Shown here: in pieces, positions 2,284 through 39,534 of the stretch
Layout: each line of letters begins with the position of its first letter
How positions within the stretch are numbered: the stretch's first letter is position 1
NCBI RefSeq assembly: GCF_024273195.1
Contig: NZ_JAMZCU010000003.1
Location: 520,807-584,806, forward strand
DNA from: Devosia ureilytica
Lineage (GTDB): Bacteria; Pseudomonadota; Alphaproteobacteria; Rhizobiales; Devosiaceae
DNA: 64,000 nt
Reading direction: 5' to 3'
The notes under the pieces: model-generated
Databases searched by the model: none
Told to the model about the DNA's origin: nothing
The model's input: the letters and a program-made list of their open reading frames with translations, nothing else
Program-made: the position numbers and the translations under genes

Positions 2284-3174
2284 TTATTCCGCCGCTGCCT
2301 TCTTGGGCTGCACCGCCCGCGCATAGGCATCGATCAGCGTCCGGCAGGCATCGCCCGGCGTGAACTTGTACTCCCCGATCAGCGACACCGGCGTCACTTC
2401 TGCCGCCGTGCCGGTCAGGAAGCATTCGTCGAACTGGCTCAGTTCCTCGGGCATAATGTGCCGTTCGGTGACGGTGTAGCCATTTTCCTTGGCGAGACCA
2501 ATCAGCGTCTGGCGGGTAATGCCATTGAGGAAGCAGTCCGGCGTCGGCGTCGTGATGTCCTTGCCCTTGACGAAAAACACATTGGCGCCGGTCGCCTCGG
2601 CCACATAGCCGCGATAGTCCAGCATCAGCGCATCCGAATAGCCATTGGCCATGGCCGCGTCTTTCGACAGCGTGCAGATCATGTAAAGACCAGCCGCCTT
2701 GGCCGAGGACGGAATGGTTTCCGGGCTCGGACGCTTCCAGCGGCTCCACTCAAGGCGAATGCCCTTGAGCTTTTCCTCGACCGAGAAATAGCTCGGCCAC
2801 ACCCAGGCGGCGATCGCCAGATGCACCGTGTTGTTCCGGGCCGGCACCGAAAGTTCTTCCGAACCGCGCCAGGCCACCGGACGCACATAAGCATCCACCA
2901 GATTGTTCTTTTCCAGCACCAGCGCCTTGGCCGCCTCGATCTCGTCGACGCTATAGGGCATGGGCATATCGAGCGTTGCCGCCGAGCGGATCAGCCGCTC
3001 TGTGTGCTCGCGCGACTTGAAGATTTCGCCGCCATAAGCGCGCTCACCCTCGAATACGGAACTGGCGTAGTGCAGCCCGTGCGTCAGCACGTGCACCTTC
3101 GCGTCTTTCCAGGGTTTGAGTTCGCCATCAAACCAGATCCAGCCTTCACGCTGGTCCATAGGCAGGCCTGCCAT
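2284..3174 (-). CDS. ilvE: Branched-chain amino acid aminotransferase (class IV)
   Basis: PLP-dependent transfer of the amino group between glutamate and the keto acids of Leu, Ile and Val. The 296-residue protein has the fold-type IV pattern: DAKVHVLTHGLHYASSVFEG near the N-terminus, SSAKAAGLY with the likely PLP lysine, and YVAEATGANVFFV for phosphate binding. The ATG at 3174 was chosen because GGAGAGGA stands 4 bases upstream and the protein then starts MAGLPMDQREGW. A longer open frame exists but has no such site. The gene is divergent from a MarR gene and ends in a clear terminator. Confidence 0.93.
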   Translation of the reverse strand: MAGLPMDQREGWIWFDGELKPWKDAKVHVLTHGLHYASSVFEGERAYGGEIFKSREHTERLIRSAATLDMPMPYSVDEIEAAKALVLEKNNLVDAYVRPVAWRGSEELSVPARNNTVHLAIAAWVWPSYFSVEEKLKGIRLEWSRWKRPSPETIPSSAKAAGLYMICTLSKDAAMANGYSDALMLDYRGYVAEATGANVFFVKGKDITTPTPDCFLNGITRQTLIGLAKENGYTVTERHIMPEELSQFDECFLTGTAAEVTPVSLIGEYKFTPGDACRTLIDAYARAVQPKKAAAE

Positions 3175-33948: not shown

Positions 33949-34605
33949 TTACCAGTCTTCCGGCGGCCCGCCCGCATAAAGCGCTGCTTGCGCCGCATAG
34001 GCATGCTTATAGGCAGAACGCGCCTCCCCCCGCGCCACATAGGCCGCAAGGTTGGGAAATTCCGCCAGCAGCGGCGCCTCGGCGCGACGCAACACCAGCA
34101 CCATCATCAGGTCGCCAGCGCTGAATGCGCCATCGAGCCACTCACGTTCGCCCAGATGCGCGGAAAGATCCTGCAGCCGCGCCCGGATTGCGTCATCGAG
34201 GAAGGCGAAGCGCTCGGGACTATACCAGGGCTTGCCGCGGTCGGTGAACTCTGACTGTTCCCGCTCGACAATCGGCGGCTCCACCGTGCTGACCGCCGCG
34301 AACATCCACATCATGGCCCGCGCCCGACCGTCCGGATCGCTCGGCAACAGGCCAGGATGCCGGAGCGCCAGGTGCAGCACGATGGCACCCGATTCAAACA
34401 GCACCAGCCCGTCCTGCTCAAAGGTGGGGATTTGCCCGAAGGGGTGCCGTGCCCGATGCTCGGGGGCCTTTAGTCCCTTGAACGACACGAGCCGCACTTG
34501 ATAGGCCTGCCCCACCTCCTCCAGTGCCCAGCGCGCCCGCATGTCGCGCGCCAGGCCCTTGCCTCCGTCGGGGGACCATTTGAAAACCGTAAGAATGGGC
34601 AGCAT
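33949..34605 (-). CDS. Glutathione S-transferase family protein
   Basis: A 218-residue two-domain GST. The N-terminal thioredoxin-like domain includes [20 protein letters not shown] and the GSH site [20 protein letters not shown]; the C-terminal domain is all helical ([20 protein letters not shown]). The class cannot be told. It is convergent with the DUF1801 gene and divergent from the DUF2200 gene. No substrate can be assigned. Confidence 0.85.
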
Positions 34606-34691
34606 GTTCGATCTCCGGGGGCGCTTGCCTCAATGACGAACGGGCCTCCCCGCCATCGACAGGTCGCTGCTATTGGCGCTATTCTGCCCCC

Positions 34692-35048
34692 ATGGACTAC
34701 GAAAATCATCGCATCTACGGCATGAGTGTGGCCAGCGTCTATGTGCACTACGTCACCAAGGCCGAACGCAAGGGCCGGACCAGGGACGAGGTGGACGAGG
34801 TCACGCGCTGGCTCACCGGCTACTCGCAGCAGCAACTCGAACAGGCGCTCGCGGACAAGACACCATTCCAGGATTTTTTCGACAACGCGCCACGCCTCAA
34901 TCCGTCCAGATCCTTGATCAAGGGCGTGATCTGCGGCGTGCGCCTTGAAGAAATCGATCACCCGCTGATGCGCGACATCCGCTACCTCGACAAACTGGTG
35001 GATGAACTGGCCAAGGGCCGGCCCATGGCAAAAATCCTGCGCAGCTGA
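34692..35048 (+). CDS. DUF2200 family protein
   Basis: A 118-residue protein of the DUF2200 family, recognised by [20 protein letters not shown] and the later [20 protein letters not shown]. The family is found in many bacteria and its function is not known. A basic segment ([20 protein letters not shown]) resembles a helix-turn region but no DNA-binding motif is certain. It lies 71 bases upstream of murL on the same strand. Confidence 0.78.
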
Positions 35049-35119
35049 GCTGGACTCGCCCCACTCCCACCACAGCCGCAAATCACCTATATGGGGAGCA
35101 CAGAGCCAACGAGTAGTCC

Positions 35120-36451
35120 GTGACCGAATTCTTCCGTATCGAGCACCCATCGTTTGACCCCGCCACCGGCGAGGCGCGATTTCCCTATACCCTCAACGAT
35201 CTGAACTTCACCGAAACTCTGCTGTTGCCGCAAGGCGCCGATGCAGAAACAGCCGGTTCAGCTGCGTTTGAAAAGCTGCTCGGCCTGACGGCACTGGTCC
35301 TCGGCGTCAGCTACTTCAAGCTGCGAGCGCCTTATGCCATTCACGCCTCTGGCATTGCGCTGACTGCAGCCGAGCGTGCCTTCGTCATCGACGTCTATGA
35401 GAACGGCCTGGGTGAATTCTATGCGCGCAACGACCTGGCCCGCTTCGGCAAGCTCACGCTGACCGCCCCCGACGACGCAAGCGAGCGCAAGCCGGCCCCT
35501 GCCCTGCCCGAGCGCACCCTGCTGCCCATTGGCGGGGGCAAGGATTCGCTCGTCAGCGTCGATCTGCTCACCCATACCGGCCAGCAATTCACCCCCTTTG
35601 CCGTCAATCCCAAGGGTCCGATCCTGACCTCGGTGGACGCCATCGGCACGCCGCCGGTCTATGTCACCCGCACGCTCGACCCTGAAATGATCCGGCTCGG
35701 ACAGCTGCCGGGCTACTACAATGGCCATGTCCCCTCGACGGCCATCAATTCGATGATCGCCTCACTGTGTGCAGTACTGTTTGGCTACAACCAGATTGTG
35801 TTATCCAATGAGCGCTCGGCCAGTGAGGGCAATGTGGTGTTCGACGGGCGCGAAACCAATCACCAATATTCCAAGTCGCTAGGCTTTGAACTGCTGATCG
35901 CCGACACATTGGCCAATGCGACAGGTGGCGCGCTCAAATATTTCTCGCTGCTACGCCCCTATTCTGAAGCGCGGATTGCCTCGCTGTTCACCAAGGAAAG
36001 CCGGTTCGACGCCGTCTTTTCGAGCTGCAATCGCAATTTTCGCCTGACCGGCAATGATGGTCACCTATGGTGCGGCCAATGTCCGAAATGTCACTTCGTT
36101 TTCCTGATCTTTGCGCCCTTCATGGCCAAGCAGCGGATGCTGAAGATTTTCGGCAAGAACCTTCTCAATGAACCGGCCAATGAACAATCATTCCGCGAAC
36201 TTGCCGGCCTCACCGGCCAGAAGCCATGGGAGTGTGTCGGCGAAATCCTCGAAGCGGCTGCCTGCTTCTATACGCTGACGCGCCATGCCGATTGGCATGA
36301 GGACGCCGTGGTTCGCGCCATCAAAGCAGACCTTTTCGCCCAATATGGCGAGGAGAAGCTGCAATTGGCCATGGCCGAGTGCCTGACCGACAGCCACGAC
36401 CATCATATTCCCCCGGCGCTGGCCGCCAAGGTGGCCGCCTATGCAGTTTGA
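35120..36451 (+). CDS. murL: UDP-N-acetylmuramoyl-L-alanyl-L-glutamate epimerase
   Basis: Epimerises the terminal L-Glu of UDP-MurNAc-L-Ala-L-Glu to D-Glu, ATP-dependent, as characterised for MurL of Xanthomonas. The 443-residue protein has an ATP-pyrophosphatase P-loop, LLPIGGGKDSLVS (residues 134-146). It has a downstream Cys cluster (SSCNRNF and WCGQCPKCH), reminiscent of QueC-type PP-loop enzymes. It overlaps the murD2 start by 11 bases. Identification rests on the overall match I recall plus the murD2 partner; residue-level proof was not possible here. Confidence 0.82.
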   Translation: MTEFFRIEHPSFDPATGEARFPYTLNDLNFTETLLLPQGADAETAGSAAFEKLLGLTALVLGVSYFKLRAPYAIHASGIALTAAERAFVIDVYENGLGEFYARNDLARFGKLTLTAPDDASERKPAPALPERTLLPIGGGKDSLVSVDLLTHTGQQFTPFAVNPKGPILTSVDAIGTPPVYVTRTLDPEMIRLGQLPGYYNGHVPSTAINSMIASLCAVLFGYNQIVLSNERSASEGNVVFDGRETNHQYSKSLGFELLIADTLANATGGALKYFSLLRPYSEARIASLFTKESRFDAVFSSCNRNFRLTGNDGHLWCGQCPKCHFVFLIFAPFMAKQRMLKIFGKNLLNEPANEQSFRELAGLTGQKPWECVGEILEAAACFYTLTRHADWHEDAVVRAIKADLFAQYGEEKLQLAMAECLTDSHDHHIPPALAAKVAAYAV

Positions 36452-37739
36452 TACACCCGTCCTGCTCTATGGTGCGGGGCGCGAAGCGCTGTCCACGCGC
36501 GCCTTTCTCAAGGCGCGCCAGCCGAACCTCAAGGTTTTCGTGACGGTGGATAGTGGCACCGCCGACATCCCTGAGACCGAGCAGATCGACGCCGCGGAAC
36601 TGCCGGCTGCCATCAAGGCGCATCGTTTTGGCCTCATCGTCAAAAGTCCGGGCGTATCGCGCTACAAGCCGGTGTTTGATCTGGCCCGCGACGCCGGCAT
36701 TGCCGTCACCTCCAACCTCAATCTCTGGGGCGCGGCCTATCGGCACAACCGCACCGTCATCGCCATCACCGGCACGAAGGGAAAGTCGACCACGGCAACC
36801 CTTGTTCACCTGATGGTCACCCGGTCCGGCATTGATGCTGGCCTGGCCGGCAATGTCGGGCTCGCCCCGCTCGAAATCGCCGACAAGCATCCCGTGATCA
36901 TTTTTGAGTTGTCCAGTTATCAAACCGCGGACATGAATTTCCTGCCCGATTTGGCGGCACTGACCAACCTTTATGCCGAACATGTCGACTGGCATGGCTC
37001 GGTCGATCGCTACTATGCCGACAAGCTTAACCTGATCGACCGGGACGGCGTCTTTGCCGTGGCGCTGGGGCAGGCCGCACGGGGCAATGCGCTTGTCGCC
37101 AAGGCAGTGCGCGACCACCGCCGCCTGCTGCCTGACCTGGCACCGGAAACCAGTGCCTTGATCGAGAAGGCCGTGGCCCATTCACGCCTGCGGGGCGCCC
37201 ACAATCTCGACAATGCCCTCCTGGCCGCGCAGATCACCCTGGGCATTGGCGGCACGCTCGACGGCATCATCCAGGGCATCGCCGCATTCCGCCCGCTGCC
37301 GCACCGCCTCGAAGAGCACCTCTTCGGCGGCATGACCGTGGTCAACGACTCCATCTCAACAACGCCCGAAGCCACCAAGGCGGCACTTGCGGCCTATCCC
37401 GGCCGGCGCATTGCCCTTGTCGCCGGCGGCTACGAACGGCAACAGGACTACACCGAATTGTCCGAATTGCTGGCCCAGCGTGGAGTCACCACCCTGGTGA
37501 CCCTGCCGGTGACAGGCGACAGGCTGGCGCGCGCCACCGCGATGGTCGCGCCAGACATCGTCGTACACAAAGCGCCCCATCTCGAAGCGGCCATCGCGCT
37601 CCTGGCGGATCTCCAGGCACGCTTTGACACGATCATCCTCTCCCCAGGAGCACCGTCCTACAACCAGTTCAAGAATTTTGAGGAGCGCGGCACCCGCTTT
37701 GTCGCACTGTGTCGCAAGCATTTTGCTCCGGACGCCTGA
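36441..37739 (+). CDS. murD2: UDP-N-acetylmuramoyl-L-alanine--L-glutamate ligase (MurD2)
   Basis: Mur ligase that adds L-Glu, instead of D-Glu, to UDP-MurNAc-L-Ala, for later epimerisation by MurL. The 432-residue protein has the Mur P-loop AITGTKGKSTTATLVH (111-117), the central EHVDWHGSVDRYYADKLNL, and the third-domain VVNDSISTTPEATKAALAA and VAGGYERQQDYTEL. It resembles MurD but lacks the canonical MurD N-terminal sequence, and it is paired with murL in an overlapping operon, which is why the MurD2 assignment is preferred. Confidence 0.8.
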   Translation: MQFDTPVLLYGAGREALSTRAFLKARQPNLKVFVTVDSGTADIPETEQIDAAELPAAIKAHRFGLIVKSPGVSRYKPVFDLARDAGIAVTSNLNLWGAAYRHNRTVIAITGTKGKSTTATLVHLMVTRSGIDAGLAGNVGLAPLEIADKHPVIIFELSSYQTADMNFLPDLAALTNLYAEHVDWHGSVDRYYADKLNLIDRDGVFAVALGQAARGNALVAKAVRDHRRLLPDLAPETSALIEKAVAHSRLRGAHNLDNALLAAQITLGIGGTLDGIIQGIAAFRPLPHRLEEHLFGGMTVVNDSISTTPEATKAALAAYPGRRIALVAGGYERQQDYTELSELLAQRGVTTLVTLPVTGDRLARATAMVAPDIVVHKAPHLEAAIALLADLQARFDTIILSPGAPSYNQFKNFEERGTRFVALCRKHFAPDA

Positions 37740-37742
37740 CAA

Positions 37743-39497
37743 TCAATAGGCGCTGTCCAGGCTCTTGTCTGGCACACCGGCGTTGAGCAGCGCCACTTCA
37801 ATGCGACCGAGTAAAGCTTGATCGGTTATCCGATGTCGCAGCCGCGTCATAATGCCGGCACTGCGGAAGCTGGCAACCTCGAGAAGTGTGGGCAGCACCT
37901 GTCCGACCATGGCGACATCGCCTGCCCCCTGGGCGATGAGGATGGACAAGACGGCCCCTAACTCCGTGTCAACGCGCCCACATTCGAGGGCCAGCCGCTG
38001 GGCCTTTGCGAATGCCTTGTCCTCAAGTGCGGCCATAGCTGGAACGCATTGGAACCAGTCAGGCACTTCCAGTGGCGGCACGGCGTCTATGGCCCGCTGT
38101 GCCAATGCCCTCGCCCTATCCAACTGACCGATCAGGGCCAGATGCCGCGCATGCGCTGCCGTGCCGTCGATATTGGCGGTGTTGAGTTGCAACGCCGTTC
38201 CATAATCGGACTCGGCGAAATCATGCTGGCCCAACGCCTCGTGCAGTCGCGCCCTCTGCTCCCAGACAAAGCTGCTTGTCGGTGACGCTTGTAGCGCCTG
38301 CGCCAGCAGCGCCTCGGCGTCAGCAAAGCGTTCGGCCTGCCTTTCAGCGTTCAACTGACCTTCGAGGGGCGTTTCCGCCAGCAGGCTGGCCCGCGCCGCC
38401 AGGACATTACCGCTCTTTTGATCATCGGCATTCAAGGCGCGAACGCAGGAATCGAGCCGGGCCGAAGCCCCTGCAGTGGGCGAGGTTCGATATATCGAGA
38501 ACAAAAGACCACAGAGATAGAAATTTTCCTGCCCGGCAATGTCGTTTCGTGCCAGGTACTCCCTTGCCTTCACATGCAGAGGACCACGCGGCCCACCCAA
38601 TCTCAGGATCAGTTCCTGGGAGACAAAATCAATGCCGCCACGCTGAGCCATCCGCTCGCGTGGAACGACCCCAGACCAGTTCCAGACCACATTATTGGTG
38701 GCGGCATCGGTCAGGATGGCGTTGAACTGGAAATTCTCGCCCACTCCGACATCGCTGCGAACAATACCGGTAAGCACGAAATCATCCTGCCGGTCAGTCT
38801 CGACCATGACGCTGCCCCGACCGCCAAACGCCACGTCGACGATCAGAAGCGGCTCGAAATCAGTCACGAGTTCGACAGCAAGGGCGGCAATGGAGGGGGT
38901 GAAACTATTGTCCCCCGTCAGGTTCTGGAATTCCATAATCCGCAGTTTGGGCATCTGCATGGCGCCGGTTGAGGCGACGACTACCTGTGCCTGACGCGGT
39001 CCCATGGTGGCCAAAGCATAGGTCAGAGCCGTGGCGCCCAGCGCCAACACCAACAGCACAAACCAGGACACGGTGACATGCCCCCGTTCCCGCACAGGCG
39101 GCGGGCCGGACGGGACACCGGCTACGCGTCCGATCGGCTTTGCCGATGGCTCGGTTGCCGAGTCAACGAAATCGGGAACATAGCGACCAATTGGCAGCTG
39201 TATGCGCACGGGATCATCAACCCCCGGGCCGATATAATACTGATCGAGCAACGCGCGCAGTCGTCGTGCCTGCACTCGAACGATTGGATCGGCCTGCGGG
39301 TCGAAGTCGGGCGATCGTCCGAAGACATCGACTGCAATCGAATAGGCTTTGATCGCCTGGGCGTCCCCCGTGAGCCGGCGTTCAACAATATAGGTGAGAA
39401 AATTGGCGAGTTGCGGGGAGCGCGCGAGGTCCGGCCACGCCAGCAAACGGGCCAGAGCCTGTTTTACCCCTTCGATGTCCGCATTCGCCGCAGCCAC
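37743..39497 (-). CDS. Membrane-anchored regulator with TPR/TolB-like domain
   Basis: A 584-residue protein. Residues about 1-100 (WPDLARSPQLANFLTYIVER, PIVRVQARRLRALLDQYY) match a conserved N-terminal module found on adenylate-cyclase-like and TPR proteins of alphaproteobacteria; it may bind DNA. A single membrane segment lies at about 145-165 (SWFVLLVLALGATALTYALA). The C-terminal part resembles the periplasmic TolB-like/TPR module (IMEFQNLTGDNSFTPSIAAL). The layout recalls CadC-type one-component regulators. The start at GTG 39497 has AGGAG at 7 bases; a TTG two codons earlier is the alternative. Convergent with murD2, 3 bases apart. Confidence 0.7.
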   Translation of the reverse strand: MAAANADIEGVKQALARLLAWPDLARSPQLANFLTYIVERRLTGDAQAIKAYSIAVDVFGRSPDFDPQADPIVRVQARRLRALLDQYYIGPGVDDPVRIQLPIGRYVPDFVDSATEPSAKPIGRVAGVPSGPPPVRERGHVTVSWFVLLVLALGATALTYALATMGPRQAQVVVASTGAMQMPKLRIMEFQNLTGDNSFTPSIAALAVELVTDFEPLLIVDVAFGGRGSVMVETDRQDDFVLTGIVRSDVGVGENFQFNAILTDAATNNVVWNWSGVVPRERMAQRGGIDFVSQELILRLGGPRGPLHVKAREYLARNDIAGQENFYLCGLLFSIYRTSPTAGASARLDSCVRALNADDQKSGNVLAARASLLAETPLEGQLNAERQAERFADAEALLAQALQASPTSSFVWEQRARLHEALGQHDFAESDYGTALQLNTANIDGTAAHARHLALIGQLDRARALAQRAIDAVPPLEVPDWFQCVPAMAALEDKAFAKAQRLALECGRVDTELGAVLSILIAQGAGDVAMVGQVLPTLLEVASFRSAGIMTRLRHRITDQALLGRIEVALLNAGVPDKSLDSAY

Positions 39498-39534
39498 CCG
39501 CAAACTCCTACCGCTCTTGGAGAGTTTGCGCTGC

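Follow-up and report, generated by a model that had tools for sequence, protein, structure and literature searches.

The window, a stretch of 64,000 nucleotides from the genome of Devosia ureilytica (3.8 Mb, 99.2% complete, 20 contigs), carries two overlapping genes on the forward strand, named here murL and murD2 after the assignments argued below. A reading of the letters made beforehand (the sequence-only reading) had proposed such an overlapping pair in a genome of likely Hyphomicrobiales origin. Both reading frames were recovered together with their overlap of 11 bases. The assignment to the Hyphomicrobiales proved correct, and the nearest named relatives belong to Devosia. The features of the locus are as follows.

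34692-35048, DUF2200 gene, ending 71 bases upstream of murL
35120-36451, + strand, murL (gene 1), 443 aa, GTG start
35528-35548, + strand, IGGGKDS of MurL (residues 137-143), PP-loop-like
36026-36091, + strand, four invariant Cys of MurL (residues 303, 318, 321 and 324), putative metal site
36441-36451, + strand, overlap of the two genes, from the ATG of murD2 to the TGA of murL
36441-37739, + strand, murD2 (gene 2, a Mur ligase gene), 432 aa, ATG start
36978-36980, + strand, Glu180 of MurD2, aligned with Asp182 of E. coli MurD
37353-37355, + strand, Ile305 of MurD2, aligned with Lys319 of E. coli MurD
37437-37439, + strand, Arg333 of MurD2, aligned with Lys348 of E. coli MurD
37653-37655, + strand, Pro405 of MurD2, aligned with Ala414 of E. 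coli MurD
37743-39503, - strand, next long open reading frame downstream of murD2

A spacing of -11 is the most frequent one between murL and murD2, occurring at 23 of the 126 loci measured with mechanically chosen start codons. The G+C content of the pair is 61.3% compared with 62.1% in the window, hence there is no sign of recent arrival, and recent foreign DNA was rejected on this host-like composition. A promoter scan of positions 34500-38000 returned three promoter-like sites compared with 0.9 in shuffled sequences; a + strand site lies at 34656-34685, ahead of the DUF2200 gene, and none lies between that gene and murL. A terminator scan of the same interval returned one terminator-like site compared with 2.9 in shuffles. 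Neither scan was given any weight.

Judged by its sequence, gene 1 is a full-length MurL. The NCBIfam model NF041275 (MurL) matches residues 4-440 with 403.1 bits (E = 1.2e-120), a score short of the curated 700-bit cut-off of this model, built for Xanthomonadales. That cut-off is passed by 7 of the 299 genomes in the phylum sample, which are of Xanthomonadales type, and by none of the 290 genomes in the class sample or the 397 in the order sample. At E = 0.001 gene 1 has no match in Pfam and matches MurL alone in NCBIfam, so that the unrelated PP-loop family considered as an alternative in the sequence-only reading did not appear. The P-loop and Cys cluster that had been taken as signs of MurL are both conserved: GGGKDS (residues 138-143) and Cys 303, 318, 321 and 324, ten residues in all, show no variation in either of two MurL alignments, of 18 and of 44 proteins, which have the window protein in common. 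The window MurL is 88% identical to that of D. indica and 41% identical to that of a Xanthomonas arboricola genome. A tree built from 37 MurL sequences groups together, at 100/100, the eight rows labelled Devosiaceae, of which two bear only the title Hyphomicrobiales bacterium. Other identities were tried and rejected: the best Pfam match among the 44 aligned members is HD, at E = 0.016 in a single member, the best candidate relatives in the PDB (E = 0.11 and 0.043) are not convincing, and PADLOC gives no match indicating a defence system for MurL or for a divergent MurL-like protein (L019) described below.

The assignment of gene 2 as a Mur ligase is supported by the murD model TIGR01087 (260.8 bits, cut-off 211.95) and by matches to Pfam Mur_ligase_M and Mur_ligase_C. 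Because gene 2 passes this general murD model, the model alone cannot separate MurD from MurD2, and the distinction comes from individual residues and from phylogeny. According to a 2021 review (PMC8788868), the selection of L-Glu by the Xanthomonas MurD2 is determined by Glu197 and Arg358, which stand where E. coli MurD has Asp182 and Lys348, and a Glu-to-Asp change alters the Glu choice of the Xanthomonas enzyme. The same source reports that E. coli MurD accepts L-Glu once Lys319 is changed to Thr, which is what makes position 319 of interest. At the E. coli positions 182, 319, 348 and 414 the window ligase carries E, I, R and P, as does every one of 48 MurL-linked ligases, a set that counts the window ligase and omits the partial row L010, while 29 of 29 canonical MurD proteins and E. 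coli MurD itself carry D, K, K and A. Extending the comparison to an overlapping set of 127 ligases linked to MurL gives E, I, R, P in 116 of them; position 319 is Leu in five actinobacterial rows, two rows described below have Asp at 182, and four are truncated at the end of a contig. A tree of 33 MurD2 and 17 MurD sequences splits into two groups at 100/99, with the window ligase in the MurD2 clade and apart from the canonical MurD of its own order. Gene 2 is thus MurD2 by its residues and its clade, and a canonical MurD with D-Glu-specific residues, the outcome that would have spoken against the proposed pair, was rejected on the same two grounds.

Some variation in the ligase and its arrangement was seen among other MurL loci. 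In a Hyphomicrobiales MAG (L129) and a Roseiarcaceae record (L132), MurD2 lies beside MurL and has Asp at position 182 with Ile, Arg and Pro kept. In the Micromonosporaceae loci L137, L151, L187, L188 and L189, MurD2 is encoded next to MurL but on the other strand, with Leu at position 319.

The sequence-only reading had left open whether the organism also has MurI and MurD. Profile searches of the window genome found no MurI over the cut-off. The one weak MurI match (20.9 bits) proved to be an asp_race-type racemase (TIGR00035, 219 bits, cut-off 93); this match was not listed again for the window genome (G000) in a MurI search of 80 genomes. A single MurD exceeds the cut-off, the window's own, and four weaker matches on the same contig (up to 113 bits) fall on murC, murF and murE of the cell wall cluster described below, two of them on murE. 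The search for a D-amino-acid transaminase likewise returned nothing over the cut-off, its best match (108 bits) being IlvE, which scores 447 bits with its own model (cut-off 396):

2368-3123, - strand, IlvE gene

With no MurI, D-amino-acid transaminase or second MurD over the cut-off, the genome most likely relies on the MurD2/MurL route. Racemases of the asp_race type (TIGR00035) do exceed their cut-off in 25 of 25 Devosiaceae genomes, with two copies in the window genome; among the 51 MurL-matching genomes that this search covered, 30 have one over the cut-off. Some free D-Glu is therefore possible, and it would be of little weight if the window MurD2 is as specific for L-Glu as its Xanthomonas counterpart.

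The division and cell wall (dcw) cluster of the window genome reads murE, murF, mraY, a DUF4394 gene, ftsW, murG, murC, ddl, an unnamed ORF and ftsA. Here ftsW scores 306 bits, short of the 337.5 required by its model, ftsI and ftsZ were identified from their position, and the unnamed ORF between ddl and ftsA occupies the place of ftsQ. The murD gene is missing from its usual place between mraY and ftsW, where another gene stands instead:

L020:8727-9590, DUF4394 gene between mraY and ftsW, in the place of murD

In all 15 sampled relatives without MurL, murD follows mraY (in G359 after about 1.1 kb), whereas it does so within 1.5 kb in none of 15 Devosiaceae genomes. That place is taken by ftsW in 11 of the 15 Devosiaceae genomes, and the DUF4394 gene was seen there in the window genome only. 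Elsewhere in the cluster, the interval between murC and ddl (L020:4652-4832) measures about 180 bases, so that it holds no murB.

In the order sample MurL was found in 25 of the 397 genomes, all of them in the Devosiaceae, the family of the window genome, and each of the 24 further carriers has a MurD2 relative in the same locus (24/24). Together with the full-length MurL match, this recurrence speaks against a chance resemblance. The 20 non-carriers listed belong to other families, and we read the 352 further non-carriers as holding no Devosiaceae member. We then set all 51 genomes with a MurL match in the class, order and phylum samples against 29 from the same order that lack such a match. 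MurI exceeds its cut-off in 0 of the 51 compared with 24 of the 29. Among the five relatives lacking it, two have long matches, of 142.8 and 126.3 bits, that stay below the cut-off, a third shows a pair of partial MurI matches on different contigs, and two (G292 and G308) have no match but possess a transaminase-like enzyme of about 240 bits. Such an enzyme, at 222-265 bits, is present in 26 of the 29 relatives without MurL, while the transaminase match does not exceed 122 bits in any of the 25 Devosiaceae genomes; the model's own cut-off of 277 bits is passed by none of the 80 genomes.

MurD itself was detected in 80 of 80 genomes, with exactly one copy at E = 1e-45 or better in 79 of them, and for 47 of the 51 MurL-matching genomes this single MurD is the neighbour of MurL. 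There are four exceptions. In G035 the two genes are on separate contigs. In G724 MurL is close to the end of its contig, a MurD with the residues E, L, R and P is close to the beginning of a different one, and the transaminase match is 212 bits. In G762 (L059, L087) a canonical MurD (D, K, K, A) occurs together with a second ligase, next to MurL, that is a MurD2 (E, I, R, P); no MurI match was found in this genome, nor any strong match to the transaminase model. G062 combines a partial MurL match (103 bits) with a canonical MurD, a transaminase-like enzyme of 253 bits and no MurI match. The MurL-like protein of G062 (L019:775-2214, 479 aa) is 27% identical to the window MurL over 401 aa and keeps the GGGKDS loop and the Cys cluster, and no MurD2 was found nearby. 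The partial match, together with the canonical MurD and the transaminase-like enzyme, indicates that this protein, though related to MurL, probably serves a different purpose.

The simplest history consistent with these distributions is that the murL-murD2 unit was gained in an ancestor of the Devosiaceae and that murD, murI and the transaminase-like gene were lost. The MurL and MurD2 trees leave the source of the unit unsettled.

These results lead us to propose, with a probability of about 0.93, that the murL-murD2 pair is the sole route of D-Glu into the peptidoglycan of the Devosia strain of the window. The estimate draws on comparative evidence from sequences, namely the identity of the two genes, the residue signature and clade of the ligase, the absence of murD from the dcw cluster, and the lack of any MurI or D-amino-acid transaminase over the cut-off. 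The activities of MurD2 and MurL are carried over by homology from the work on Xanthomonas, where, according to PMC8788868, MurL uses ATP to carry the MurD2 product, in one direction only, to its D-Glu form, with AMP as a product. The assignment of the Xanthomonas route to this pair, as suggested in the sequence-only reading, thus finds support in the MurL match and in the residues and clade of MurD2, with the biochemistry taken from that review; the alignments used congeners and relatives in place of the characterised X. oryzae proteins, which lie outside the comparison set.

It is improbable that the ligase is instead an ordinary MurD adding D-Glu supplied by an asp_race-type racemase, with MurL serving some other purpose. 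The window genome does have such a racemase, and the ligase does pass the general murD model, but all four diagnostic residues and the position in the tree place the ligase with MurD2, and in 47 of the 51 genomes the only MurD (E = 1e-45 or better) is the one adjoining MurL. Moreover, asp_race-type racemases occur in 5 of the 7 genomes that pass the Xanthomonadales MurL cut-off, which indicates that these racemases go along with the MurD2/MurL route. Still less credible, to the point of being nearly negligible, is the notion that MurI and a canonical murD are present in the organism and merely missing from the assembly, the pair being an extra route: the assembly is in 20 contigs at 99.2% completeness and G762 does hold MurD and MurD2 together, but neither a MurI over the cut-off nor a second MurD (E = 1e-45 or better) was found in any of 25 Devosiaceae genomes, five of them in one contig, and the window assembly does cover the dcw position normally held by murD, where another gene sits, murD having been found at that position in none of 15 Devosiaceae genomes.

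Two reviews describe MurL as having no known conserved domains. Its layout nevertheless resembles that of QueC in that a GG.DS loop near the start of the core is followed, in the same order, by SC...CxxCxxC near its end; MurL differs in being longer on both sides, and the stretch between the loop and the Cys cluster scores no better than shuffles. QueC activates a carboxylate with ATP, in a reaction that differs from that of MurL. The MurL profile also matches the PP-loop protein TtuA, at an E-value (0.043) that falls short of convincing.

Profile-profile tests of MurL against QueC are mixed: they lean towards a relation without proving it, and one of four shuffle tests speaks against it. In hhalign the E-values are 0.00045-0.011 in the favouring tests and 0.6-0.94 in the others, with probabilities of 3.6-24%. 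Column shuffles are a weak control, and metal sites of many kinds can be matched by a short segment rich in CxxC. Compared with 100 such shuffles each, the core scores 21.3 end to end (shuffles up to 14.1) and 28.9 in local mode, at the PP-loop (up to 25.1), and the part after the PP-loop scores 29.0 in local mode, at the Cys cluster (up to 23.5), and 3.2 end to end, a value equalled or exceeded by 47 of the 100 shuffles. With full-length MurL aligned end to end, QueC reaches E = 0.94 compared with 0.75 and 0.34 for the controls MurI and MurD; under the other hhalign settings QueC is better than both controls.

We therefore speculate, at slightly better than even odds, that MurL is a QueC-related PP-loop enzyme with a Cys4 metal site, in which adenylation leads to inversion. 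The GGGKDS loop would bind ATP and adenylate the alpha-carboxylate of the terminal Glu, and the activated ester would ease removal of the alpha-proton, so that the Glu carbon could invert. The putative metal site formed by the four Cys, as in QueC, would complete the fold. If this is true, divergent relatives such as the L019 protein of G062 would be carboxylate-activating or epimerising enzymes.

The Devosiaceae appear to have swapped an essential step of cell wall synthesis, in that canonical murD no longer stands in a dcw cluster of otherwise usual make-up and a two-gene unit at another locus has taken over its function, which would make this soil genus a clean natural case of essential-enzyme replacement. 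The pathway is also of interest as a target for narrow-spectrum drugs (PMC8788868). That review lists the route for Devosia and Pelagibacterium, so the novelty of finding it here is low: the MurD2/MurL route in Devosia is correct but known at the genus level. What the present analysis adds is that the Devosiaceae have lost murD from its customary position, the Ile or Leu at position 319 of MurD2 and, as a suggested likeness, the QueC-like layout of MurL. The family-wide murD loss, the position-319 pattern and the QueC likeness were not found in the literature examined, which comprised partial texts and excluded the original 2017/2019 papers; within the same partial coverage, a search for MurL together with PP-loop matched only PMC2922099, through the label Mur_ligase.

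In comparison with known systems, the window ligase resembles canonical MurD in having the Mur ligase fold and in matching its model, and differs from it in the replacement of D182, K319, K348 and A414 by E, I, R and P and in its separate clade (100/99). The closest counterpart is the MurD2/MurL pathway of Xanthomonas oryzae (XOO_1320/XOO_1319; PMC8788868). The window MurL is only about 40% identical to those of the Xanthomonas and Stenotrophomonas rows, and at the position of E. coli Leu416 the window ligase has Tyr where the X. oryzae MurD2 has Phe according to PMC8788868. The two systems are alike in the adjacency of both genes, in a full-length MurL, in the L-Glu residues of MurD2, and in the lack of any D-Glu-forming gene over the cut-off.
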